A DNA stretch of 64,000 nucleotides from an uncultured Bacteroidota bacterium (GTDB lineage Bacteria > Bacteroidota > Bacteroidia > Bacteroidales > F082). Location: contig CAJVXP010000009.1 of the NCBI GenBank assembly GCA_913009685.1, forward strand, positions 1 through 64,000. Direction: 5' to 3'. A program made the translations under genes and the position numbers. The notes beneath the pieces were generated by a model. That model saw only the letters and a program-made list of their open reading frames with translations, ran no database searches and had not been told where the DNA came from. Shown piece after piece: positions 28,334-41,137 of the stretch (position 1 is the first letter of the stretch; each line of letters starts with the position of its first letter).

Positions 28334-28735
28334 ATGAAAAAATACATTTCATTATCAGTAAAATGTCCCTTTTGCGGAAAATCGCTCATGGATGGGGATG
28401 AGCTCCTTCATGGAGAGCCTACCATTAAACTGAATATTCAAACACGGGAAAGCAGAGGAATTATTCATCTGTGTTCCATTTACGAGTGTTTTGATTATAA
28501 AACAGAGGTGGCTCTTACCGAAAAGGAGGTTGTGGAATTTGTCTGTCCTCACTGCAATAAGGAGCTGAACACCAAAGATGTATGTCGCATTTGCCATGCT
28601 CCTATGGTTTCATTGCTTCTTAAAACAGGCGGAAGAGTAAGCCTGTGCTCACGAACAGGATGTGCCAATCACTATGTAGCTTTTGAGGATTTATCCACAG
28701 AGCTGCAAAAATTTTATGAAAAGTATGAGATTTAG
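28334..28735 (+). CDS. Small multi-zinc-ribbon protein of unknown function
   Basis: A 133-aa cytosolic protein with paired cysteines suited to two or three zinc ribbons: CPFC (residues 11-14), CSIYEC, CPHC, CRIC and CSRTGC. I do not recognise the family. The C-terminus (LSTELQKFYEKYEI) is helical. It is convergent with hypE, separated only by the ~160-bp palindromic element. A role near the hydrogenase (metal handling or regulation) is possible but only by proximity. Confidence 0.7.
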   Translation: MKKYISLSVKCPFCGKSLMDGDELLHGEPTIKLNIQTRESRGIIHLCSIYECFDYKTEVALTEKEVVEFVCPHCNKELNTKDVCRICHAPMVSLLLKTGGRVSLCSRTGCANHYVAFEDLSTELQKFYEKYEI

Positions 28736-28894: not shown

Positions 28895-29911
28895 TTAGCA
28901 AATTCGGGGTAATTGCTGCCCCGAAAGCATCTCAATCATTCTTTTGCCACCTACCGATGTGTTGAGCCAGGCTTTTCCGGGATGCTCGCTGGTTATCTCG
29001 CCAATAACAGCAGCTTGTTTACCCAGTGGATTAGCCTGCATGGCTTCGACGATTCGGTCTGCATCATTTGCTGCCACTACCATCACCAGTTTTCCTTCGT
29101 TTGCTACATAAAGCGGGTCGAAGCCCAGCAGTTCACACATTCCCCTCACCGAATCTTTCGGCACAAGTTTATCCTCATTTATCTGAATGCCGAAATCCTT
29201 TTTTCGCACCAGCTCGGACAATACCGTTCCGAGTCCTCCGCGGGTAGCATCGCGCATGAAGCGAATATTTTCCGAAACTTCCAACGCCTCTGCAATAAGT
29301 CCGTTCAAACAAGCACAATCCGACAAAACAGACGTTGAAATATTCATGTCATTTCGTGCCGCCATAATGGCCATGCCGTGCTCGGCAATTCCGCCGTTGA
29401 TAATGATTTTATCGCCTGCTTTTATGTTCTTTCCAGAGCTGATGGCCAACAAGTTATCGTCTATCTCCCCTACTCCGCTGGTATTGATGAAAATTTTATC
29501 GCATTTTCCTTTTTCCACTACCTTCGTGTCGCCGGTAGCGATGAAAACACCGGCCTTTTTGGCTTCTTCCGACATGCTTCTCACAATCTTTTCCAGCTCA
29601 TCAAGCGGAAATCCTTCTTCAAGGATAAATCCCACGCTCAGGTATTTGGGAACGGCCCCGGAAACGGCCAAATCGTTAACTGTTCCTGCAATAGCAAGCT
29701 TGCCAATGTTTCCGCCGGGAAAGAAAACCGGATCTACCACAAACGAATCAGTGGTAAATGCCAGATTTTGCCCATGTAACTTCAGAAGCGCCGAATCGCC
29801 CTGTTCGTGCAGGATAGGATTGTCGAAATAGCGAACAAACAAACTTTCAATTAATTCGTGGGTCATGCTGCCTCCGCTACCGTGTCCCATTAATATTTTA
29901 TCGTCTTTCAT
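28895..29911 (-). CDS. hypE: Hydrogenase maturation protein HypE
   Basis: A 338-aa PurM/AIR-synthase-fold enzyme. It dehydrates the carbamoyl group that HypF places on its C-terminal cysteine to a thiocyanate, the source of the Fe-bound cyanides. The start GHGSGGSMTHELIESLF and the ending LPRIC (the PRxC-type C-terminal cysteine) are diagnostic and separate it from SelD or ThiL. ATP-site motifs TDSFVVDPVFFPGGNIG and ATGDTKVVEKGKCD are present. Last gene of the leftward hypF-C-D-E operon. Confidence 0.96.
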   Translation of the reverse strand: MKDDKILMGHGSGGSMTHELIESLFVRYFDNPILHEQGDSALLKLHGQNLAFTTDSFVVDPVFFPGGNIGKLAIAGTVNDLAVSGAVPKYLSVGFILEEGFPLDELEKIVRSMSEEAKKAGVFIATGDTKVVEKGKCDKIFINTSGVGEIDDNLLAISSGKNIKAGDKIIINGGIAEHGMAIMAARNDMNISTSVLSDCACLNGLIAEALEVSENIRFMRDATRGGLGTVLSELVRKKDFGIQINEDKLVPKDSVRGMCELLGFDPLYVANEGKLVMVVAANDADRIVEAMQANPLGKQAAVIGEITSEHPGKAWLNTSVGGKRMIEMLSGQQLPRIC

Positions 29912-30066: not shown

Positions 30067-31149
30067 CTAACGATTATATAAATAGTACGCCTGGCAGGCT
30101 CCTTCGCTGGACACCATGCAGCTTCCCACCGGATCGCGGGGCGTACAGACTTTGCCAAACAGCCGGCAATCTTTCGGCTTTTTTAATCCCTTCAGCACTT
30201 CCCCGCAAATACATCCTTTTGGCTCACGCAAAGGCACCATTCCGTCTGCGCTGATGTTTACTTCCGCATCGTGAGCGGAATATTTGGATCTTAATTTCAA
30301 GCCACTCTCTTTTAGAACTCCCAAACCACGCCACCAGTCATCGGCAGGTTCAAAAACTTCATTCATCATCTGCTGTGCTTTTACATTTCCCTCCGGTTTT
30401 ACTGCTCGTTTATACTGAATCTCCACACGGGTATTTCCGGTTTCAATTTGTTTTATCAACATCAAAATCGACTGCATAAGATCGACCGGCTCAAAGCCAC
30501 TGATAACTACTCCAAGTCCGTATTTTGCAGGAATTCCCTCGTAGATTTTCATTCCGGTTATGGTACTCACATGGCCGGGACCGATGTAACCGTTAATCTT
30601 AACTCCTTCATCAATCAGTGCAGACATGGCAGGCGGCATAACTTTGTGAGCGCTGAATACAAAGAAGTTTGTTAGCTTTTCTCTGTATGCCTGCAAGATC
30701 GCTACTGCTGATCCCGGCGCTGTGGTTTCAAAGCCTATACCAAGAAAAACAATTTTCTTCTGCGGATGCTCACGGGCTATCTGCAAGGCATCCATAACAG
30801 AGTAAACCACCCGGATTTGCGCTCCGCCGGCATGCTCCTTTTCCAGAGAACTTTCCGAACCGGGAACGCGAATCAGATCGCCATAAGTAGCAATGATCAC
30901 ATCCTTTTGTTGACTGTATGCTATCGCTTTGTCGATATAAGAACGACTTGTTACACACACCGGACATCCCGGACCCGATATCAGCTCAACTGTGCCGGGC
31001 AGCAATGCCGGGATACCAAATTTTTGTATTGACATGGTATGACCTCCGCACACCTCCATGAGTTTAACCGGTTGTGTGGAAGCTTTCCTAATCTCCTGTG
31101 CAAGCGCCTGCACCACCTTCCTGTCTCTGAATTCATCAATATATTTCAT
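30067..31149 (-). CDS. hypD: Hydrogenase maturation protein HypD
   Basis: A 360-aa iron-sulfur scaffold on which the Fe(CN)2CO unit is assembled with HypC. Cysteine motifs LMEVCGGHTMSI and ISGPGCPVCVT, the GFETTAP motif, and a C-terminal cluster (GCICGEVLKGLKKP..CRLFGKVCTP) binding a [4Fe-4S] cluster are all present. Its start overlaps the hypC stop by 4 bp. Complete and normal in length. Confidence 0.97.
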   Translation of the reverse strand: MKYIDEFRDRKVVQALAQEIRKASTQPVKLMEVCGGHTMSIQKFGIPALLPGTVELISGPGCPVCVTSRSYIDKAIAYSQQKDVIIATYGDLIRVPGSESSLEKEHAGGAQIRVVYSVMDALQIAREHPQKKIVFLGIGFETTAPGSAVAILQAYREKLTNFFVFSAHKVMPPAMSALIDEGVKINGYIGPGHVSTITGMKIYEGIPAKYGLGVVISGFEPVDLMQSILMLIKQIETGNTRVEIQYKRAVKPEGNVKAQQMMNEVFEPADDWWRGLGVLKESGLKLRSKYSAHDAEVNISADGMVPLREPKGCICGEVLKGLKKPKDCRLFGKVCTPRDPVGSCMVSSEGACQAYYLYNR

Positions 31150-31415
31150 ATCAGCCTTTGGTTTTTTTCATTTTCTTCACGATCCATTTCCTCATTGAGC
31201 TTTTTAAAATCTGCGAAAGCCTCTAAACTTGCCTCCGCCTCATCTTTATCCAGTTTCTGAATAGCAAAACCGGTGTGAATCAACACATAATCACCGGGTT
31301 CCAGTTCCTCCACTGACAACATCATTAAATTGGCCTCATACGTTGAGCCTCCCACAGAACAGACCGCTGTCTCTCCATTAATTTTTTCAATTTTTGCCGG
31401 AATACTTAAGCACAT
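31146..31415 (-). CDS. hypC: Hydrogenase maturation chaperone HypC
   Basis: An 89-aa chaperone starting MCLSIPAKIEKI; Cys2 is the essential residue that carries the Fe(CN)2CO moiety and binds the large subunit precursor. The small beta-barrel (GDYVLIHTGFAIQKLD) is typical, with a charged C-terminal tail. It is sandwiched between hypF and hypD. Confidence 0.97.
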   Translation of the reverse strand: MCLSIPAKIEKINGETAVCSVGGSTYEANLMMLSVEELEPGDYVLIHTGFAIQKLDKDEAEASLEAFADFKKLNEEMDREENEKNQRLI

Positions 31416-31448: not shown

Positions 31449-33728
31449 TCAATATTTTATGGATTTTCCCGTTTCCCGCCTCCGGGCTGCAATAGCGAGT
31501 TGTCCCAGCGCGATACCGCCATCGTTTGAAGGAACCTGCTCTTGGCTGTAAACTTCAAAGCCCTTTTTACGCAGCAAAATTTCTGTATTCTTTAACAGGA
31601 TTTTATTTTGAAAACTACCTCCTGAAAGTATTACTTTTTTCAAACCCGTTGTCACCGACAGTTTTTCCACGATCTTTTCGACAACCGTCACAACCGTATT
31701 ATGAAACTTTGCAGAAATTACAGACGAAGATTTTCCGTTTTCCAGATCATCTATCAAACCCGAAAACATTGGTTTAAAAGAGATTTGATCTTCCTGAATA
31801 GTAAACGGATAGCTGTCCCGAACATTTTCAGCGGCTACTGATTCGAGTCTCATGGGCGCTTCGGCATGATAAGAAGCTTCGGTGCAAACACCGGTAAGTG
31901 CTGATACGGCATCAAAAAGTCGCCCTGCACTGCTGGTTTCGGGACAATTTATTCTGTTTTTCAGCATAATCAAAACCATGTCGAAAGCTTCCTGCTCCAC
32001 ATAAGGGAAGAGCTCCCCTTGCATTTTCCGCAAAAAATCCTCACCAAAATAGTGATAAAGAGAGGAAACGGCCATTCGCCAGGGTTGCCGGATGGTCAAA
32101 TCCCCACCTGGTTGTAAAATATTTTCAAAATGAAACGGCCTTTCAAAATCTATCAGGTCGCAAATTAAAAATTCACCACCCCATATTTTCCCATCGGTAC
32201 CGAGTCCGGTTCCATCAAAGCTAACCCCTATTACTTTTTCATCAAGGTTATGCTCTGCCATACAGGAGGCTATGTGCGCATGATGATGCTGGATGAGTTC
32301 TATAGGCATCCCTGTTTCCATAGCGAATTTTGTAGAAAAATAATCCGGATGTAAATCGGCCGCTGCCAGAGAGGGCTTAAAGCGAAACAAATGCCGGAAT
32401 CGTTGAAAGGATTCGGTATAAAAATCAAGAGTTTCCGGATTTTTCAGATCACCAATATACTGACTCAGTAAAACTTTATTCCCTTTTCCGACGGCAAAAC
32501 AGTTCACCAATTCCGCACCTGCGGCAAAAAGCCCTTCCGTATTATGGCTGAGGGTTATTGACGCCGGCACATAAGCACGCGAACGTCTGATAACCCGCTC
32601 CTTTCCGTTCACCACCATACAAACCGAGTCGTCCAACCGGTTATAAATTTCGCGGTTGTAAGTGAGGACGTCATCTGCAATGCCGGCAAACTTCTCCACT
32701 GCCTTTTCATTATCAATAATAACCGGTTCGCCCGACAAATTTCCGCTGGTCATCACCAAAGCAGGGGTGCGTAATTTTTCAAAAAGCTGATAATGGAAAG
32801 GCATGTAAGGCAGCATGGCCCCCACGGTATTAAGCCCGTTGCTGACGGAGAAGGGCATCGGCTTCTTCTCCCGCAGCAGCACTATGGGACGGCGCCAGCT
32901 TTGCAGCAATTTTTCTTCTTCAGTATTTACATGTAGATAATTTCTCACCGTTTCCACATTGGCAAACATAACGGCCAGAGGTTTCCCCTCTCTGTTTTTT
33001 TTCAAACGTAACAGGCGAATGGTATCTTCATTGAAAGCATTACAGCTCAAATGGAAACCACCCAACCCTTTCATAGCCAATATTTTTCCCCCGTCCAGCA
33101 AGCGGACAACCTTTTTCAAAATGGTTTCAAAATCATCAAGGATTTCTCCATTGGACAAATGCAGCGAATATCTTGGACCACAGTGGTTGCAAGCTACCGG
33201 TTGGGCATGAAAACGCCTGTCAGGCACATCGGTGTATTCCGAATGGCAGGTATCGCACATTTTAAACGGTGCCATGGTAGTATTGTGCCGATCGTAGGGC
33301 AATACCTTTATTATACTAAACCGGGGGCCACAGTGCGTGCAATTTGTAAAAGGATAATCTATCCGGTGCGGTTGGCTTTTCATATCTTCCAGGCAGTCAT
33401 CACAAACCGCAATGTCAGGACTCACCTCTGTTATTTCATTGGAATAAGAATGACTTGGAAGAATGGAAAAGTTCTCGAAACCTGTTATTGGTTCCACCTT
33501 AATATTTATTGCGGCAATTTTAGAAGCCACAGGAGCCTCCGCTTTCATCGCCTTTATAAATTGTTGAAGATGGTTTCGGTTTCCCTCGGCCTGTACCAAA
33601 ACACCCTCGTTGTTGTTCTCCACATTTCCACGGATGGAGTGCCTTTTGGCCAGTTTATAAATAAAAGGGCGAAAGCCTACACCCTGCACCAGCCCTTTAA
33701 TCTCTATCTTATAAGCCTCAACAATCAT
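31449..33728 (-). CDS. hypF: Carbamoyltransferase HypF
   Basis: 759 aa from ATG at 33728; the ORF-track start (33734) is a GTG inside the likely ribosome-binding purine stretch. Domains in order: acylphosphatase-like (GLVQGVGFRPFIYKLA), two zinc fingers (CDDCLEDM..CTHCGPRFSI and CDTCHSEY..CNHCGPRYSL), a YrdC-like domain (KGLGGFHLSC..REGKPLAVMF), and a Kae1-like carbamoyltransferase (HHHAHIASCMAEH, GVSFDGTGLGTDG). It transfers carbamoyl phosphate to HypE for cyanide ligand synthesis. First gene of the leftward operon. Confidence 0.96.
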   Translation of the reverse strand: MIVEAYKIEIKGLVQGVGFRPFIYKLAKRHSIRGNVENNNEGVLVQAEGNRNHLQQFIKAMKAEAPVASKIAAINIKVEPITGFENFSILPSHSYSNEITEVSPDIAVCDDCLEDMKSQPHRIDYPFTNCTHCGPRFSIIKVLPYDRHNTTMAPFKMCDTCHSEYTDVPDRRFHAQPVACNHCGPRYSLHLSNGEILDDFETILKKVVRLLDGGKILAMKGLGGFHLSCNAFNEDTIRLLRLKKNREGKPLAVMFANVETVRNYLHVNTEEEKLLQSWRRPIVLLREKKPMPFSVSNGLNTVGAMLPYMPFHYQLFEKLRTPALVMTSGNLSGEPVIIDNEKAVEKFAGIADDVLTYNREIYNRLDDSVCMVVNGKERVIRRSRAYVPASITLSHNTEGLFAAGAELVNCFAVGKGNKVLLSQYIGDLKNPETLDFYTESFQRFRHLFRFKPSLAAADLHPDYFSTKFAMETGMPIELIQHHHAHIASCMAEHNLDEKVIGVSFDGTGLGTDGKIWGGEFLICDLIDFERPFHFENILQPGGDLTIRQPWRMAVSSLYHYFGEDFLRKMQGELFPYVEQEAFDMVLIMLKNRINCPETSSAGRLFDAVSALTGVCTEASYHAEAPMRLESVAAENVRDSYPFTIQEDQISFKPMFSGLIDDLENGKSSSVISAKFHNTVVTVVEKIVEKLSVTTGLKKVILSGGSFQNKILLKNTEILLRKKGFEVYSQEQVPSNDGGIALGQLAIAARRRETGKSIKY

Positions 33729-33766
33729 TCCCACTTTCTAATTTATAACCATTTTAAATTCCGTAC

Positions 33767-33846: not shown

Positions 33847-35733
33847 ATGGCAGAAAAATCGAAAATAAATCAGTTGCTGGCTCAATTTGGTTACGACAAA
33901 ACCAGATTGATGGATATCTTATTATCAATCAATGAAATGCAAGGGTTTGTAGGGCAAGAAGACATGCAAAACATATCAGACTCCTTAGGTATTTCAATGG
34001 CTCAGGTGCAGGAAACCCTTTCTTTCTATCATTTTCTCTCCCAAAAGCCACGCGGAAAGTATAATATTTATCTTGACAGCAGTATAATAGCCTTTATGAA
34101 CGGCAGAGAAGCCGTAAAAGAGGCTTTTGAAAAATATTGCGGAATATCGTTTGGAGAAGTGTCTGATGATGGTCTTTTCGGACTGTTTAACACATCCTGT
34201 ATCGGGATGAACGATCAGGAACCGGCCGCCATTATAAACGATAAAGTTTTCACAAACCTTACTCCCTATCGTGTTATGAATCTTGTGGAGGGAATGCGTG
34301 CCGGGAAGCACATAGACGATTTGGTATATGAAGACTATGGTAATGGTAACAATTCCGACCCTGATGTAAGGGCGATGGTCAACAATCATATCAGAAAGAA
34401 ATCTATCATTCTGAAAAATGATTATGAGCCCTATAGCCTTTTAAAATCAAAGTTAAAAGACTACAGTCCGGAAGAGGTCATTAGTGAAATTGAAGCCTCT
34501 AATCTGCGAGGACGCGGTGGAGCAGGCTTCCCCACGGGTCTGAAATGGCGTTTTGGTCGTCGCACGGAAGGGAAACACCGGGTGATCATTTGTAATGCCG
34601 ATGAAGGCGAACCCGGCACTTTCAAAGACCGCGTAATGCTAACTGAGTATCAGGAACTGGTGTTTGAAGGCATGGTTGTAGCAGCTTATGCAACAGGTGC
34701 TGACATCGGTCTGCTCTATTTACGCTATGAGTACAAGTATCTGCTCCGGTTTTTAAATCGCAAACTCGCCAAAATGCGTGAAGATCATTTCCTCGGAAAA
34801 AATATTGCCGGCGTGAAAGATTTCAATTTCGACATACGTATTCAATTAGGTGCAGGAGCCTACGTCTGTGGCGAAGAGTCAGCGCTGATTGAATCGTTGG
34901 AAGGCAAGCGGGGCGAACCACGCGACAAACCACCGTTCCCCGTCGAAAAGGGTTATCTTGGCTATCCGACAATTGTAAACAATGTGGAAACCCTTGCTAC
35001 CGCAGTAAAAATACTGCATCACGGAGCCGAATGGTATTCAAACTTCGGAACCAAAGATTCGCTTGGAACCAAATTGCTCAGTATTTCGGGCGACTGTCGT
35101 TATCCGGGCATTTACGAAGTGGAATGGGGAACAAGTATCCGCGAAATCCTGGCCATGAGCGGCGCTGACGATGTGCAAGCCATCCAGGTGGGTGGCCCTT
35201 CGGGTATGCTTATCGGCTTGAAAGACATTAACAATCTGGATAACAGCGAGCTGATGAAATGGTATAAACCTTCGGGTATGATGATTGCGGAGAAATTTTT
35301 CGACCGGAGGCTTAGCTATTCAGACCTCCCTACCGGAGGTTCTATCATTATTTTTAACAACAGCCGTAATTTGCTTAGAGAAGTCGTTATGAACTTCATG
35401 GACTTTTTCATTGAAGAATCCTGCGGTTCCTGCTCCACCTGCCGCAATATGCCGTTGCTGATGAAAAATAAATTGCAAAAGATTCTGGATGGACATGGTA
35501 TCAGAAAAGACATCTACGACCTTCTCAACTGGGGGAAAGTGCTGAAAGCCAGTCGCTGCGGATTAGGACAAGCAGCAGGCAATCCGATTCTTTCTTCTGT
35601 TTTTCATTTCAGGCATTTATACGAGCAACGTATTCAAAGTCTTACCAGTTTCGACAGTGGATTTGATCTGGGAAAGGCAACGGCCACATCAAGTGAATTT
35701 GTAAATAAAAAACCGGCATTTCATCATTTTTAA
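33847..35733 (+). CDS. hoxF: NAD-reducing hydrogenase diaphorase subunit HoxF (NuoE-NuoF fusion)
   Basis: A 628-aa flavoprotein that exchanges electrons with NAD(H). Residues ~1-150 are a NuoE-like thioredoxin-fold domain; the rest is NuoF-like with the glycine-rich NADH/FMN site (LRGRGGAGFPTGLKW, NADEGEPGTFKDR, CGEESALIESLEGKRG) and a C-terminal [4Fe-4S] motif (ESCGSCSTC...SRCGLGQ). The NuoE-like part keeps only one of four cluster cysteines (TSCIGMNDQEP), as I recall for Ralstonia-type HoxF, so its [2Fe-2S] is probably absent. First gene of the rightward operon. Confidence 0.95.
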   Translation: MAEKSKINQLLAQFGYDKTRLMDILLSINEMQGFVGQEDMQNISDSLGISMAQVQETLSFYHFLSQKPRGKYNIYLDSSIIAFMNGREAVKEAFEKYCGISFGEVSDDGLFGLFNTSCIGMNDQEPAAIINDKVFTNLTPYRVMNLVEGMRAGKHIDDLVYEDYGNGNNSDPDVRAMVNNHIRKKSIILKNDYEPYSLLKSKLKDYSPEEVISEIEASNLRGRGGAGFPTGLKWRFGRRTEGKHRVIICNADEGEPGTFKDRVMLTEYQELVFEGMVVAAYATGADIGLLYLRYEYKYLLRFLNRKLAKMREDHFLGKNIAGVKDFNFDIRIQLGAGAYVCGEESALIESLEGKRGEPRDKPPFPVEKGYLGYPTIVNNVETLATAVKILHHGAEWYSNFGTKDSLGTKLLSISGDCRYPGIYEVEWGTSIREILAMSGADDVQAIQVGGPSGMLIGLKDINNLDNSELMKWYKPSGMMIAEKFFDRRLSYSDLPTGGSIIIFNNSRNLLREVVMNFMDFFIEESCGSCSTCRNMPLLMKNKLQKILDGHGIRKDIYDLLNWGKVLKASRCGLGQAAGNPILSSVFHFRHLYEQRIQSLTSFDSGFDLGKATATSSEFVNKKPAFHHF

Positions 35734-35746
35734 AGTATTTCAGATA

Positions 35747-36457
35747 ATGGAAAAAACAAATAATAAAATAAGGATTACCATTGATGGAAAGAGAACCTAT
35801 GTCACAAAAGGCTCTACCATTGTGGAAGCAGCGAAAGAAAACGGAATTTACATTCCTACACTTTGCCACTTTGAGGGGGCTGACCCCAAAGCTTGTTGTC
35901 GCATGTGTACCGTAAAAATCAACAACCGTATGATGACCTCCTGTACCACACCTGTAACAGAAGGTATGGAAATAGAGAATGATACGGAAGAGCTGAACGA
36001 AGTTCGGAAAAGCATCATCGAACTGCTGTTTGTCAGCGGCAATCATTTCTGCCCTGCTTGTGAAAAAAGCGGAAATTGTGAACTCCAGGCACTTGCCTAC
36101 CGTTACAAGATGCTGGTTCCGCGTTTCCCATACAGCTTTCCCCGCAAGGAAGTGGATGCCTCCAGCCCGAAAATTATAAAAGAACAAAACCGGTGTATTG
36201 CTTGCAAACGCTGCATAAAGACCATCCGCGATGAGCACGGGAAACACTATTTTGCCTACAAAAACCGCGGGCAGCATTTGGAAGTAATCCTCGATCCGGT
36301 TCTCGGGGACACCATGCCCGATGATCTTGCGAAAAAAGCCATGGAAAATTGTCCGGTAGGTTCTATCCTTTACAAAGAAAAAGGATTTGACCAGCCCATT
36401 GGAACCCGGAAATATGACAAGCAACCTATTGGAAGTGAAATTGAAAATAATGTTTAA
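35747..36457 (+). CDS. hoxU: NAD-reducing hydrogenase diaphorase subunit HoxU
   Basis: A 236-aa electron-transfer subunit homologous to the N-terminus of NuoG. The N-terminal ferredoxin-like [2Fe-2S] site is PTLCHFEGADPKACCRMC plus a later Cys; a His/Cys-ligated [4Fe-4S] motif is NHFCPACEKSGNC; a further site is RCIACKRC with NCPVG. It links HoxF to the hydrogenase module. It lies 13 bp after hoxF and 10 bp before hoxY. Confidence 0.95.
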   Translation: MEKTNNKIRITIDGKRTYVTKGSTIVEAAKENGIYIPTLCHFEGADPKACCRMCTVKINNRMMTSCTTPVTEGMEIENDTEELNEVRKSIIELLFVSGNHFCPACEKSGNCELQALAYRYKMLVPRFPYSFPRKEVDASSPKIIKEQNRCIACKRCIKTIRDEHGKHYFAYKNRGQHLEVILDPVLGDTMPDDLAKKAMENCPVGSILYKEKGFDQPIGTRKYDKQPIGSEIENNV

Positions 36458-36467
36458 AGCGTAAATT

Positions 36468-37016
36468 ATGAATAAAAAAATATTAGCCACTACTTCACTT
36501 GCCGGATGTTTCGGCTGCCACATGTCCATACTGGACATTGATGAGCGAATTCTGGATCTCATAGAGCTGGTGGAATTCAACAAATCACCTATTGATGACA
36601 TTAAAAAATTTACCAAACCGGTAGATATCGGGATTATAGAAGGAGGCTGTTGCAATAGCGAAAACGTGGAAATTCTGAAATATTTCAGAGAAAATTGCAA
36701 GATTCTGGTTTCTCTCGGAGAATGTGCCATTATGGGAGGTTTGCCGGCTATGCGCAACGGAATTCCCATTGAGGAATGCCTGAAAGAGGCGTATATCGAT
36801 GGCCCTACCGTACAGGAAAACAAGGAGCATATCCTCCCCAACGATGAAGAGCTTCCTCTTTTGCTCGACCAGGTATATCCATGTCACGAAATTGTAAAAA
36901 TCGATTATTTCCTTCCGGGATGTCCTCCCCGTGCCGACCTTATTTGGAATGCACTTTATGCGCTCATTACCGACAATCCCATGGAAATACCTTACGAAGT
37001 AGTCAAATTTGATTAA
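36468..37016 (+). CDS. hoxY: [NiFe]-hydrogenase small subunit HoxY
   Basis: A 182-aa small subunit carrying the proximal iron-sulfur cluster. Ligand motifs: LAGCFGCHMS, EGGCCNSEN, SLGECAIMGG and LPGCPPRAD. It has no Tat signal and no distal cluster domain, as expected for cytosolic group 3d enzymes. It lies directly before hoxH. Confidence 0.96.
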   Translation: MNKKILATTSLAGCFGCHMSILDIDERILDLIELVEFNKSPIDDIKKFTKPVDIGIIEGGCCNSENVEILKYFRENCKILVSLGECAIMGGLPAMRNGIPIEECLKEAYIDGPTVQENKEHILPNDEELPLLLDQVYPCHEIVKIDYFLPGCPPRADLIWNALYALITDNPMEIPYEVVKFD

Positions 37017-37027
37017 AAAATAGCAAT

Positions 37028-38482
37028 ATGTCAAAGAAAATAACCATAGAACCTGTTACAAGAGTTGAAGGCCACGGAAAAGTTACAATCCAAATGGATG
37101 ATAATCATCAGGTTATAGATTCCAGGCTACACATTGTTGAATTTCGCGGCTTCGAACGTTTTGTTCAGGGAAGGCCTTACTGGGAAGCGCCCGTTTTGGT
37201 ACAACGGCTTTGCGGCATTTGTCCGGTAAGCCATCATATAGCTGCTGCTAAAGCACTGGATGTTATTGTGGGAGCCGGTGATGGCGATGGGCTGACGGCC
37301 GTAGGTGAAAAAATGCGTCGTCTTATGCACTACGGCCAGTTTTTCCAATCGCATGTTTTACATTTTTTTCATCTGAGTTCTCCTGATTTCCTGTTTGGTA
37401 TTGATGGCGACCCTGCCATGCGAAATATTGTCGGTGTTGCTCAGGTACACAAAGAGCTGGCAGTACAAGGTGTTATGATGCGAAAATTCGGCCAGGAGGT
37501 CATTCGTCTTACCGCCGGAAAGAAAATCCACGGAACGGGAGCCATTCCCGGTGGCATCAACAAAAATCTCAGCATTGCGGAGCGCGATGAGCTCTTAAAA
37601 GGTCCTGACCCGCTAAATGCTGACAAAATGATAGAATGGTCGCTGTCGGCTCTGGAGTTCTTCAAAAATTATCACAAGCAAAATCACGCCAAAGTCGATG
37701 ATTTTGCCAGCTTTCCTTCCAACCATTTGAGTATGGTAAGAAAAGATGGTGCTTTGGACATTTATCACGGTGTACTCCGTGCAGTGGACAGCGAAGGAAA
37801 CCGGATTCTCGACGATGTTGACTACCACGAATATTATAACTACATCGAAGAAGAAGTAAAAAGCTGGAGCTACATGAAGTTCCCCTATCTGAAACATTTG
37901 GGAAAAGAGAAAGGCTGGTATCGTGTAGGACCGCTGGCACGCCTGAACACTTGCGATTTTATCCCCTCTCCCCTTGCTCAAAAAGAATTTGAAGAGTATA
38001 AAGCTTATACCCACGGCAAACCCAACAACATGAGTCTGCATTATCACTGGGCACGGCTGATAGAAGTGCTGCATGCCGCCGAGGTCATCCGGGATTTACT
38101 CCATGATCCGGATTTACAAAATGAAGACCTCGTTGTTAAGGGAAAGAAACAAAAAGAAGGTGTGGGCGTCATTGAAGCACCCCGTGGGACACTTTTCCAT
38201 CATTACAAAATCGATGATAATGATTTGATTACCATGGCTAACCTGATTGTTTCGACCACCAACAACAACGAACCCATGAACCGGGCCGTTGAAAGTACGG
38301 CACGGGCGTTTATGAACGGACAGGAAACGATTACCGAACCCATGATGAATGCTGTTGAAGTAGCCATCAGAGCCTATGACCCCTGCCTGAGTTGCGCCAC
38401 ACATGCACTGGGGCAAATGCCTCTCGAAATGACCATTTTAGGAGCAAGCGGGCGGATTTTAGATCACAAAATGAAAGACTGA
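37028..38482 (+). CDS. hoxH: [NiFe]-hydrogenase large subunit HoxH
   Basis: A 484-aa catalytic subunit. The two CxxC pairs holding Ni and Fe are RLCGICPVSH near the N-terminus and DPCLSCATH near the C-terminus. The ~25-residue tail after that His (ALGQMPLEMTILGASG...) is the extension removed by the maturation protease after nickel insertion. Overall features place it in group 3d (bidirectional NAD-linked). It is followed 5 bp later by the matching protease. Confidence 0.97.
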   Translation: MSKKITIEPVTRVEGHGKVTIQMDDNHQVIDSRLHIVEFRGFERFVQGRPYWEAPVLVQRLCGICPVSHHIAAAKALDVIVGAGDGDGLTAVGEKMRRLMHYGQFFQSHVLHFFHLSSPDFLFGIDGDPAMRNIVGVAQVHKELAVQGVMMRKFGQEVIRLTAGKKIHGTGAIPGGINKNLSIAERDELLKGPDPLNADKMIEWSLSALEFFKNYHKQNHAKVDDFASFPSNHLSMVRKDGALDIYHGVLRAVDSEGNRILDDVDYHEYYNYIEEEVKSWSYMKFPYLKHLGKEKGWYRVGPLARLNTCDFIPSPLAQKEFEEYKAYTHGKPNNMSLHYHWARLIEVLHAAEVIRDLLHDPDLQNEDLVVKGKKQKEGVGVIEAPRGTLFHHYKIDDNDLITMANLIVSTTNNNEPMNRAVESTARAFMNGQETITEPMMNAVEVAIRAYDPCLSCATHALGQMPLEMTILGASGRILDHKMKD

Positions 38483-38487
38483 AAACA

Positions 38488-38952
38488 ATGAAAAAGATTC
38501 TTGTTTATGGTTACGGAAATCCCGGACGGCAAGATGATGGCCTGGGTGTGAGCTGTGTAAAAATGTTGAAAGAATGGGCTGAGAAGAATTTTCCGGGTAC
38601 TATTGATGTGGATATGAACTATCAGCTTAATATTGAAGATGCAGAGAAAATTTCACATTACGATAAGGTGATTTTTGCCGATGCTTCCTGCGAAAATATC
38701 CATCAATTTGCATACACTACGATTAAGCCTTCCGACGCACAGCTCGAATTCAGCATGCATGCCGTCGCTCCGGCTTATGTGCTTTATTTGTGTCGTTCGC
38801 TTTTCGGGAAACAACCGGTGAGCCATCTGTTGCACATTCGCGGTTATGAATGGGGTATGCAGGAAGGGCTGACCGAAAGGGCAAAAGAGAATCTTGAAGT
38901 GAGCTTCCATGCCATGACCGGGCTTTTAACAGACTACTTATCAGATAATTAA
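38488..38952 (+). CDS. hoxW: Hydrogenase maturation endopeptidase HoxW
   Basis: 154 aa from the ATG at 38488, 5 bp after the hoxH stop. The opening MKKILVYGYGNPGRQDDGLG is the HyaD/HybD/HoxW protease signature with its nickel-sensing acidic residues. The ORF-track start at 38392 lies inside hoxH and is rejected. It should clip the HoxH C-terminal extension as the last maturation step. Confidence 0.93.
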   Translation: MKKILVYGYGNPGRQDDGLGVSCVKMLKEWAEKNFPGTIDVDMNYQLNIEDAEKISHYDKVIFADASCENIHQFAYTTIKPSDAQLEFSMHAVAPAYVLYLCRSLFGKQPVSHLLHIRGYEWGMQEGLTERAKENLEVSFHAMTGLLTDYLSDN

Positions 38953-38963
38953 AAATTTATATT

Positions 38964-39962
38964 ATGGATTTATCCACAACCTATATGGGATTAAAGCTGA
39001 AAAATCCGATAATAATCAGCAGTTCAAGAATAAGCGGCGAAGTGGAGACTATTCGGCAATGTATTAGCTACGGCGCCTCAGCTGTTGTTCTTAAGTCGAT
39101 TTTTGAGGAACAAATGAGCCTGCGGGCTGAGGCAAGGTTAAAACAGAGCAAAGAAAATGAAGCCTACTACTGGTTTTCCGAAGCCAGGGAATATATTTTA
39201 AATCTTTCTAAAGAAGCTGTACTGGACCACTATCTGCAATTTGTTAAAACAACCAAGGCTATTGATGCTTCCGTACCGATTATCTCCAGTATCCATTGTA
39301 AAAGTGCCGACAACTGGCCAAAATATGCCAAAGAAATTGAAAATGCAGGTGCTGATGCACTGGAGCTGAACATTTCCATTTTTCCGTTCAACAACAGCAT
39401 GTCCAGCATTGAAATTGAAGACCTTTATGTGAAAATTCTGGGAAAGGTAAAACAGGAAGTCAGTATACCGGTTTCCATAAAGCTGGGACCATTCTTTACC
39501 AATCTCTGCACGCTCATCAGGCGTTTGGTTGATGCAGGTGTCGATGGATTGGTACTGTTTAACCGCTACTTCAGACCCGATATTGACATTGAATCCTTAA
39601 AAGTCGTCAGCCGCGAGCATTTTTCCTCTCCTGAAGAGATGAGTCTGCCCTTGCGATGGATAGCCCTGCTGAGTGGTAACGAGGTGTCCTGCGATCTGGT
39701 CGCCTCCACCGGCATTCATTACGATACGGCTCTAATAAAACAAATTCTTGTAGGGGCACGGGCTGTAGAAGTTTGCTCTACCCTTTTTCAAAACGGGATT
39801 CCCCATATTGCAAAAATGCTGGGAGGCTTGGAGAACTGGATGAAGAAACATCACTTTGAAAGTCTGGATGACTTCCGCGGAAAATCGCTGGATTATCAAA
39901 CCACTGATGCCAGCTTCGAACGTATTCAGTATATGAAAAGAGATTTTGAAGAAATATTTTGA
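38964..39962 (+). CDS. Dihydroorotate dehydrogenase-like flavoprotein in the hox operon
   Basis: A 332-aa TIM-barrel flavoprotein of the DHOD-like family: MDLSTTYMGLKLKNPIIISSS, PIISSIHCKSADNW, ALELNISIFPFN and FMN-phosphate motif region ALIKQILVGARAVEVCSTLF. Paralogues annotated as DHOD-like occur in Bacteroidota away from pyrimidine genes, often near redox enzymes. Here it sits between hoxW and hypA with 11- and 14-bp spacings, so it is in the hydrogenase transcript. No PyrK-type partner is present. An electron-transfer role is possible but unproven. Confidence 0.85.
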   Translation: MDLSTTYMGLKLKNPIIISSSRISGEVETIRQCISYGASAVVLKSIFEEQMSLRAEARLKQSKENEAYYWFSEAREYILNLSKEAVLDHYLQFVKTTKAIDASVPIISSIHCKSADNWPKYAKEIENAGADALELNISIFPFNNSMSSIEIEDLYVKILGKVKQEVSIPVSIKLGPFFTNLCTLIRRLVDAGVDGLVLFNRYFRPDIDIESLKVVSREHFSSPEEMSLPLRWIALLSGNEVSCDLVASTGIHYDTALIKQILVGARAVEVCSTLFQNGIPHIAKMLGGLENWMKKHHFESLDDFRGKSLDYQTTDASFERIQYMKRDFEEIF

Positions 39963-39976
39963 TAAAACGCCGAACA

Positions 39977-40324
39977 ATGCACGAGTTATCCATAGTTATG
40001 AGTATCGTTGACACGGTGGAAAAAGAGCGCGGAAAGCAACAGGCTGATGCCGTGGAATCCATTGAACTGGATATAGGCATGATCTCCGGCGTGGAAATGG
40101 ATGCTTTTTATTTCGCCTGGGATGCCGGGGTGAGCAAAACAATTCTGGAAAACACAAAGCTAAAAATCAACCGGCCACCGGCAAAAGCAAAATGCACAGC
40201 GTGCGGACATTCTTTTGCCGCCACCAGCAGCTTCGATGCCTGTCCGGAATGTGGAAATCCTTTTTGCGACATCATTTCAGGCAAAGAGTTAAGAATAAAA
40301 AGAATGATAGTAATCAAAAATTAA
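39977..40324 (+). CDS. hypA: Hydrogenase nickel insertion protein HypA
   Basis: 115 aa from MHELSIVMSIVD, the nickel-binding N-terminus (Met1-His2-Glu3). The zinc site has two CxxC pairs: CTACGHSF and CPECGNP. The ORF-track start six codons upstream (39959) would bury the essential N-terminal amine and is rejected. It works with HypB to deliver Ni to HoxH. Confidence 0.95.
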   Translation: MHELSIVMSIVDTVEKERGKQQADAVESIELDIGMISGVEMDAFYFAWDAGVSKTILENTKLKINRPPAKAKCTACGHSFAATSSFDACPECGNPFCDIISGKELRIKRMIVIKN

Positions 40325-40336
40325 AAAGACAGCATT

Positions 40337-41137
40337 ATGTGTATGACATGCGGTTGTGGTAATTCCACAGAGAACAACGTACTGATAGCCAGGCCGGGAA
40401 AAGTAAATCCGGAGGAGCTGTCGTTGATGCCCGAACAAAAACATGACCACGAGCATCCTCATCACCATCATCACGACCATCCGCATACAAAAACCGTGGT
40501 TGAGATGGAACAGGACATCCTGCAAAGCAACAATCTGACTGCCGAGCGAAACAGAGGCTTTTTCGAAGCAAAAAATATTCTTGCACTGAATCTTGTTAGT
40601 TCTCCCGGTTCCGGAAAAACCAGTTTTCTCGAAAAAACCCTTCACGACCTGAAAGATGAAATACCATTTTCAGTAATTGAAGGTGACCAACAGACTTTTA
40701 ACGATGCGCGACGAATTGAATCACAAGGCATTCCGGTAGTTCAAATTAACACAGGACAAGGTTGCCATCTCGACAGCGACATGGTTCACAGGGCGCTGAA
40801 AAAGCTGAACCCTCCGGAAAAGGCTGTCGTTATGATTGAAAATGTTGGTAACCTCGTGTGCCCTGCACTTTTTGACCTCGGCGAGAATAGCCGCATTGTT
40901 CTTATCAGTGTTACGGAAGGCGATGATAAACCCATAAAATACCCTGATATGTTTCAATCTGCGGATATATGTATCATCAACAAAATCGATTTATTACCCT
41001 ACGTAAACTTTGACATGGAAAAAGCCAAAGATTATGCAAAACGGGTCAACCATCATTTAAAATTCTTTGAAATATCCGCCACAACCGGCGAGGGCATGGA
41101 TGCCTGGTATGACTGGCTGAGAAAAGAGAGAACGTAA
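40337..41137 (+). CDS. hypB: Hydrogenase nickel incorporation GTPase HypB
   Basis: A 266-aa SIMIBI GTPase. The N-terminal nickel site is MCMTCGCGN; a histidine-rich nickel-storage stretch (HEHPHHHHHDHPH) spans about residues 38-52; the P-loop is SSPGSGKTSF; G-domain motifs EGDQQT, ENVGNLVCPALFDLG and NKIDLL follow. It delivers nickel to the large subunit with HypA. Last gene of the hox/hyp rightward operon. Confidence 0.97.
   Translation: MCMTCGCGNSTENNVLIARPGKVNPEELSLMPEQKHDHEHPHHHHHDHPHTKTVVEMEQDILQSNNLTAERNRGFFEAKNILALNLVSSPGSGKTSFLEKTLHDLKDEIPFSVIEGDQQTFNDARRIESQGIPVVQINTGQGCHLDSDMVHRALKKLNPPEKAVVMIENVGNLVCPALFDLGENSRIVLISVTEGDDKPIKYPDMFQSADICIINKIDLLPYVNFDMEKAKDYAKRVNHHLKFFEISATTGEGMDAWYDWLRKERT

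Follow-up and report, generated by a model that had tools for sequence, protein, structure and literature searches.

A gene for a dihydroorotate dehydrogenase (DHOD)-like flavoprotein is built into the hox hydrogenase operon of an uncultured Bacteroidota bacterium, and it is inherited with Hox across many species. It was found in the window, by which we mean the whole stretch of 64,000 nucleotides that was analysed. The reading that we prefer, and to which we give a probability of about one half, is that the protein serves oxidoreductases linked to ferredoxin or NAD(P)H as a dedicated FMN partner, in the present case Hox (HoxEFUYH). Its family, NF005741, which default annotation places among the pyrimidine enzymes, appears here to accompany enzymes that are central to anaerobic redox metabolism. 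If the protein is indeed an electron partner, the models of electron flow through Hox and PFOR miss a component, and the clean separation of the paralogs by partner makes the partner question directly testable.

The gene (38964-39962, forward strand) is an intact reading frame of 332 amino acids that opens with ATG and closes with TGA, at the coordinates first given for it, and its assignment to the hox-linked clade of NF005741, a family of FMN-fold flavoproteins, is based on the family match, the tree and an AlphaFold model. It stands in a tight run of forward-strand genes in the order hoxEF-hoxU-hoxY-hoxH-hoxW-(DHOD-like)-hypA-hypB. The run opens with a HoxE-HoxF fusion, the NAD/FMN diaphorase subunit (33847-35733), in which 2Fe-2S thioredoxin-like, Nuo51 FMN and NADH_4Fe-4S domains are recognized, and it continues with HoxU (35747-36457; 2Fe-2S and 4Fe-4S domains), the hydrogenase small subunit HoxY (36468-37016; PF01058) and the NiFe large subunit HoxH (37028-38482; PF00374), which carries the RLCGIC and DPCLSC motifs. 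By Pfam domains and motifs, hoxF, hoxU, hoxY and hoxH and the NiFe large-subunit motifs required of a Hox operon are thus all present. The next protein (38488-38952) matched none of the Pfam and NCBIfam models, and it is called a HoxW-like maturation protease on its position, its GxGNxxxxDDGxG motif (GYGNPGRQDDGLG) and its weak resemblance (E 0.041) to one hydrogenase maturation peptidase in the PDB. Its stop at 38952 is followed after 11 bp by the ATG of the DHOD-like gene at 38964, whose own stop at 39962 lies 14 bp from the ATG of hypA at 39977 (HypA, 39977-40324, PF01155; then HypB, 40337-41137, PF02492). The earlier note had described the gene as tightly packed between hoxW and hypA and devoid of pyrimidine neighbours or of a PyrK partner, and both points are borne out, as the gene list of the window has neither a pyrimidine gene nor a PyrK homologue adjacent to it. 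The gene is under strong purifying selection: in a codon comparison with the nearest orthologue, dN was 0.075 against a dS of about 1.7, the latter being near saturation.

Upstream of the hox run lies a divergent maturation cluster on the reverse strand, recognized by sequence, which comprises HypF (31449-33734), HypC (31146-31415, with the start MCLSIPAKI), HypD (30067-31149) and HypE (28895-29911). A small cysteine-rich zinc-ribbon-like protein (28334-28735) is found between a Rex-like regulator and hypE. As for the fusion at 33847-35733, HoxE and HoxF form one protein of 628 amino acids, and relatives may share it, judging by single tblastn matches. We take the enzyme to be a group 3d bidirectional [NiFe] hydrogenase on the basis of its gene set and general knowledge, and the operon indeed holds the full hoxEF-U-Y-H-W set of this group. 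It differs by the DHOD-like gene, which to our knowledge is part of no textbook group 3d hox set.

The linkage between the gene and the hydrogenase was followed by searching HoxH in 60 relatives and 393 genomes of the order and by scanning the flanking regions with the proteins of the window. The resulting set of Hox loci includes the window and 7 loci from other classes, while 13 loci were too short to decide. The DHOD-like gene lies directly downstream of hoxW in 38 of the 88 decidable loci (window included), a count that depends on sampling and relatedness. The co-occurrence survey that the earlier note had proposed therefore finds linkage in related hydrogenase loci. The hox-linked copies fall in one clade (SH-aLRT 99) of 50 entries, 45 of which are linked to hox and 5 not or not visibly so, and this clade is marked by the hox-specific residues Tyr68, Trp70 and Gly175. 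The distances between DHOD-like proteins follow those between the corresponding HoxH (Mantel r 0.88 over 34 loci, 0 of 2000 permutations). Gene linkage and co-inheritance with hoxH, as expected of a Hox subunit or partner, are thus both observed, and the linkage is genuine; a chance placement is ruled out by the repeated gene order and the single clade. What linkage and co-inheritance establish is a functional association, not electron transfer.

The remaining 50 decidable loci lack the gene, among them those of the close relatives G006 and G007 and all 7 from outside the order. This rules out a universal component of Hox, and it agrees with the remark of the earlier note that such a role would not be standard for group 3d systems. 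With the majority of the decidable loci lacking it, the gene is accessory rather than an essential part, and the hydrogenase presumably works without the protein. On the HoxH tree, 12 changes are needed to account for its presence, a sign of repeated loss or transfer, and no common replacement gene was seen in its slot among the lacking loci that were inspected. In the Spirochaetota loci L196 and L198 it sits at the far side of the hyp-hox cluster, and its adjacency to hypA is found only in the window and its nearest relatives. A copy of the hox clade stands away from hox in 3 genomes, 2 of which (G014 and G024) have no HoxH.

With respect to family identity, the protein scores 381.5 bits over residues 1-325 against NF005741 (curated cut-off 303), and it is thus a member of this family, known as NF005741 / PRK07565 "dihydroorotate dehydrogenase-like protein". 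It reaches 51 bits with the Pfam model PF01180 (DHO_dh), and it falls under the cut-offs of every PyrD equivalog (96.3/269, 95.2/270, 54.2/301 and 21.5/366 bits) and of PreA (NF006183; 96.6 bits, cut-off 335). The one paper found on PRK07565 takes it for a class-2 PyrD, which conflicts with these curated-model scores. The NF005741 model itself carries no function, while the hox-linked clade has its own residues, named above, and its own operon. In the AlphaFold model (pLDDT 87.6), the nearest solved folds are the DHOD-like domain of dihydropyrimidine dehydrogenase (DPD; 1gte, E 6.9e-18) and the class-1 DHODs. An alignment with 53 relatives shows Lys44, Ser45, Glu48, Glu49, Asn136, Lys173, Asn200, Arg201, Arg231 and Gly250 to be invariant or nearly so; among them Lys44, Asn136, Lys173 and Asn200 match, by the alignment and general knowledge, the residues that contact FMN or orotate in DHODs, so that the FMN-site lysines and asparagines of a DHOD are kept. 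The NxSCPN base loop of DHOD and DPD is lost from all of the NF005741 members sampled; most of them have ELNIxI[FM]P in its place (ELNISIFPF in the window protein), with Ile or Val at the base position, and the catalytic Cys or Ser that class 1 or 2 PyrD carries in an NxSCPN or NxSSPN loop is therefore lacking. The earlier note had recommended inspecting the active-site base and the FMN ligands, and the outcome is a lost base in a preserved FMN site. Because the base loop is lost and the PyrD and PreA scores are far too low, the protein is not a dihydroorotate dehydrogenase in mechanism. The family alignment has no conserved CxxC-type or Fe-S cysteine cluster, and the C-terminal 4Fe-4S domain of PreA is missing, as the 332 residues stop at the barrel.

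The family extends well beyond the hydrogenase. Most relatives in the same taxonomic family carry 4-6 NF005741 members, and among the 127 listed members from 36 genomes, 65 adjoin hox, nifJ/PFOR or nfnAB by coordinate intersection, where about 1 case in total would be expected by chance (estimated from the sizes of the flanks and a genome length of about 3.3 Mb). Twenty lie behind hox and 19 behind nfnAB, all on the same strand as their partner, 26 are divergent from nifJ/PFOR, mostly with a gap of 220-480 bp, and 62 have none of these three neighbours. In the tree, the nifJ, nfn and MBS copies each form one supported clade, and the hox copies lie within one. The MBS copies head an MBS/Mbx-like operon that encodes a NuoI-GltD fusion together with Mrp-type, NuoB-, NuoD- and NuoH-like subunits. 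The NuoD-like one has no paired nickel cysteines, and its closest match is 6u8y, which we take to be the Pyrococcus MBS complex. A ferredoxin-NADP reductase adjoins the gene in two distant genomes, and a 2-oxoacid:ferredoxin oxidoreductase (Kor) lies within a few kb of it in two genomes. Rnf stands beside a member in two near relatives only and was dropped as a general rule, and a link of one copy (L081) to NuoE/F-like and hydrogenase-like genes was not accepted, as they are 4.5 kb apart. In a phylum-wide sample of 118 genomes, 31 of 39 members are directly downstream of nifJ on the same strand, and nifJ is present in 38/38 genomes with a member versus 23/79 without (Fisher p 7.5e-15, uncorrected for kinship). 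Two alphaproteobacterial plasmids show the order GltD/PreT-like - nifJ - DHOD-like, and on a plasmid of Acaryochloris a member lies two genes away from hypD. Since its paralogs adjoin PFOR, NfnAB and others, the role of the protein must be broader than the hydrogenase. The earlier proposal of an accessory flavin protein of the hydrogenase thus stands for the accessory part but not for a role limited to the hydrogenase.

Taken as a whole, the NF005741 proteins appear to accompany ferredoxin- and NAD(P)H-linked enzymes as flavin partners; the ancestral tie was most probably to PFOR, and in the host lineage one copy would be reserved for Hox. The preferred reading is built on the fold family, the kept FMN-site residues, the lost base, the lack of an Fe-S motif, the operon position, the co-inheritance with Hox and the redox-linked sister paralogs. 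The protein would be a TIM barrel of the cytosol that carries FMN and no longer performs the dihydroorotate reaction. PyrD in PyrDK and the PreA half of DPD serve as models for the mechanism: the protein may dock either on the partner's Fe-S/flavin module (HoxEF/HoxU in the Hox case) or on the ferredoxin that the partner uses, and its FMN would exchange electrons between the partner chain and a small molecule. FMN occupancy, docking, the exchange and its direction, the acceptor and a role of ferredoxin for Hox are what we infer. DPD and PreA offer the nearest solved fold and sequence match, and in them an FMN barrel takes electrons from a separate Fe-S/flavin module; the window protein differs in having about 20% identity, no conservation at the Cys671 position and no fused Fe-S module. 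Class 1B PyrD likewise shares the fold and the FMN-site lysines and asparagines and relies on a partner, PyrK, for its electron route, but the window protein has neither the base loop nor PyrK, and scores 96.3 bits against 269. The sister proteins suggest an unstudied class of electron-handling helper proteins. More tentatively, and with rather less confidence, NF005741 could be a general plug-in FMN module of ferredoxin-centred metabolism, in which an ancestral PFOR partner was duplicated to give NfnAB, the MBS-like complex, Rnf and Hox their own copies, the one in the host lineage being an extra flavin port through which the NAD-linked Hox exchanges electrons with ferredoxin or a further acceptor.

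The main rival to electron exchange in the manner of PreA or PyrD is a flavoenzyme of metabolite or cofactor repair or of enzyme protection, which we consider unlikely but worth weighing. Such an enzyme would stand outside the electron chain. Its targets would be aberrant products or inactive states to which reductive enzymes give rise, a wrongly reduced nicotinamide or a damaged flavin for instance, and this would explain why copies accompany PFOR, Nfn, Hox and similar enzymes. The partners are indeed very different and have low-potential electrons and Fe-S clusters in common, the protein is patchy and dispensable, and the active site is near-invariant across the paralogs. However, one shared metabolite would need no dedicated paralog per partner, and the nfn, nifJ, MBS and hox copies are separate supported clades that keep their neighbours.

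A maturation or assembly factor of the hydrogenase, suggested by the place of the gene between hoxW and hypA, appears improbable, since this order is limited to the window and its nearest relatives, the gene is absent from most Hox loci, and members of the family also stand beside PFOR, NfnAB and other enzymes in which no Ni-Fe site has to be matured. The chances are similarly slim that the gene is a passenger caught in the operon with no functional tie to Hox. Its patchy presence and the few copies that survive without Hox would fit, but the single clade, the strong purifying selection, the correlation with HoxH, the constant slot of the gene in many families of the order and its occurrence in Spirochaetota hox clusters argue against it, as does the host genome: the hox-linked copy is its one NF005741 member above cut-off (assembly 88% complete), and the nifJ-side copy is gone. 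In the relative G006 (L171), a DHOD-like gene sits between nifJ and a glutamate dehydrogenase gene, where the host has 546 bp left between the nifJ start and that gene (L211, G000:C1, 1999-2545). NfnA and RnfC were not found above cut-offs in the same 88% complete assembly. Finally, a true dihydroorotate or dihydropyrimidine dehydrogenase placed in the operon by happenstance, as the fold and distant homology to PyrD and PreA might suggest, is very improbable given the lost base loop, the low scores, the absence of PyrK or pyrimidine neighbours and a separate canonical class-2 (quinone-type) PyrD elsewhere in the genome, which also rules out that the protein is the only DHOD of the organism, an outcome that the earlier note had held against its own proposal.

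In the literature, a full-text search found no paper that links a "dihydroorotate dehydrogenase-like" protein to hydrogenase or NfnAB, or that gives the NF005741 family a function. Cyanobacteria offer possible counterparts. In Synechocystis, the gene annotated as DHOD (fumarate), sll0744, is grouped with the nifJ transcription unit, and it shows a transient induction together with hox in the dark under microoxic conditions (PMC11368403). The nifJ gene of Anabaena is alr1911 (PMC4005646); the locus tag alr1912 stands next to it, and this "DHOD" rises with hoxH in a cse mutant, which was interpreted as pyrimidine synthesis (PMC7065334). Both are thus DHOD-like genes of a nifJ unit induced with hox or hoxH, but they accompany PFOR and not hox, and they are likened to the window gene by annotation and context.

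Several further arrangements were seen around the paralogs. The MBS/Mbx-like operon occurs at loci L164, L170 and L224, and its NuoI-GltD fusion is PRK13984-like. In a Bacteroidales (L199:7679-9475) and a Flavobacteriales locus (L200:9986-11804), a ferredoxin-NADP(+) reductase-like gene begins no more than about 10 bp downstream of the DHOD-like gene. An ORF of about 1130 amino acids with a PPDK_N-type ATP-grasp domain lies upstream of nfnAB and the DHOD-like gene at L167, L169, L172, L177 and L179.
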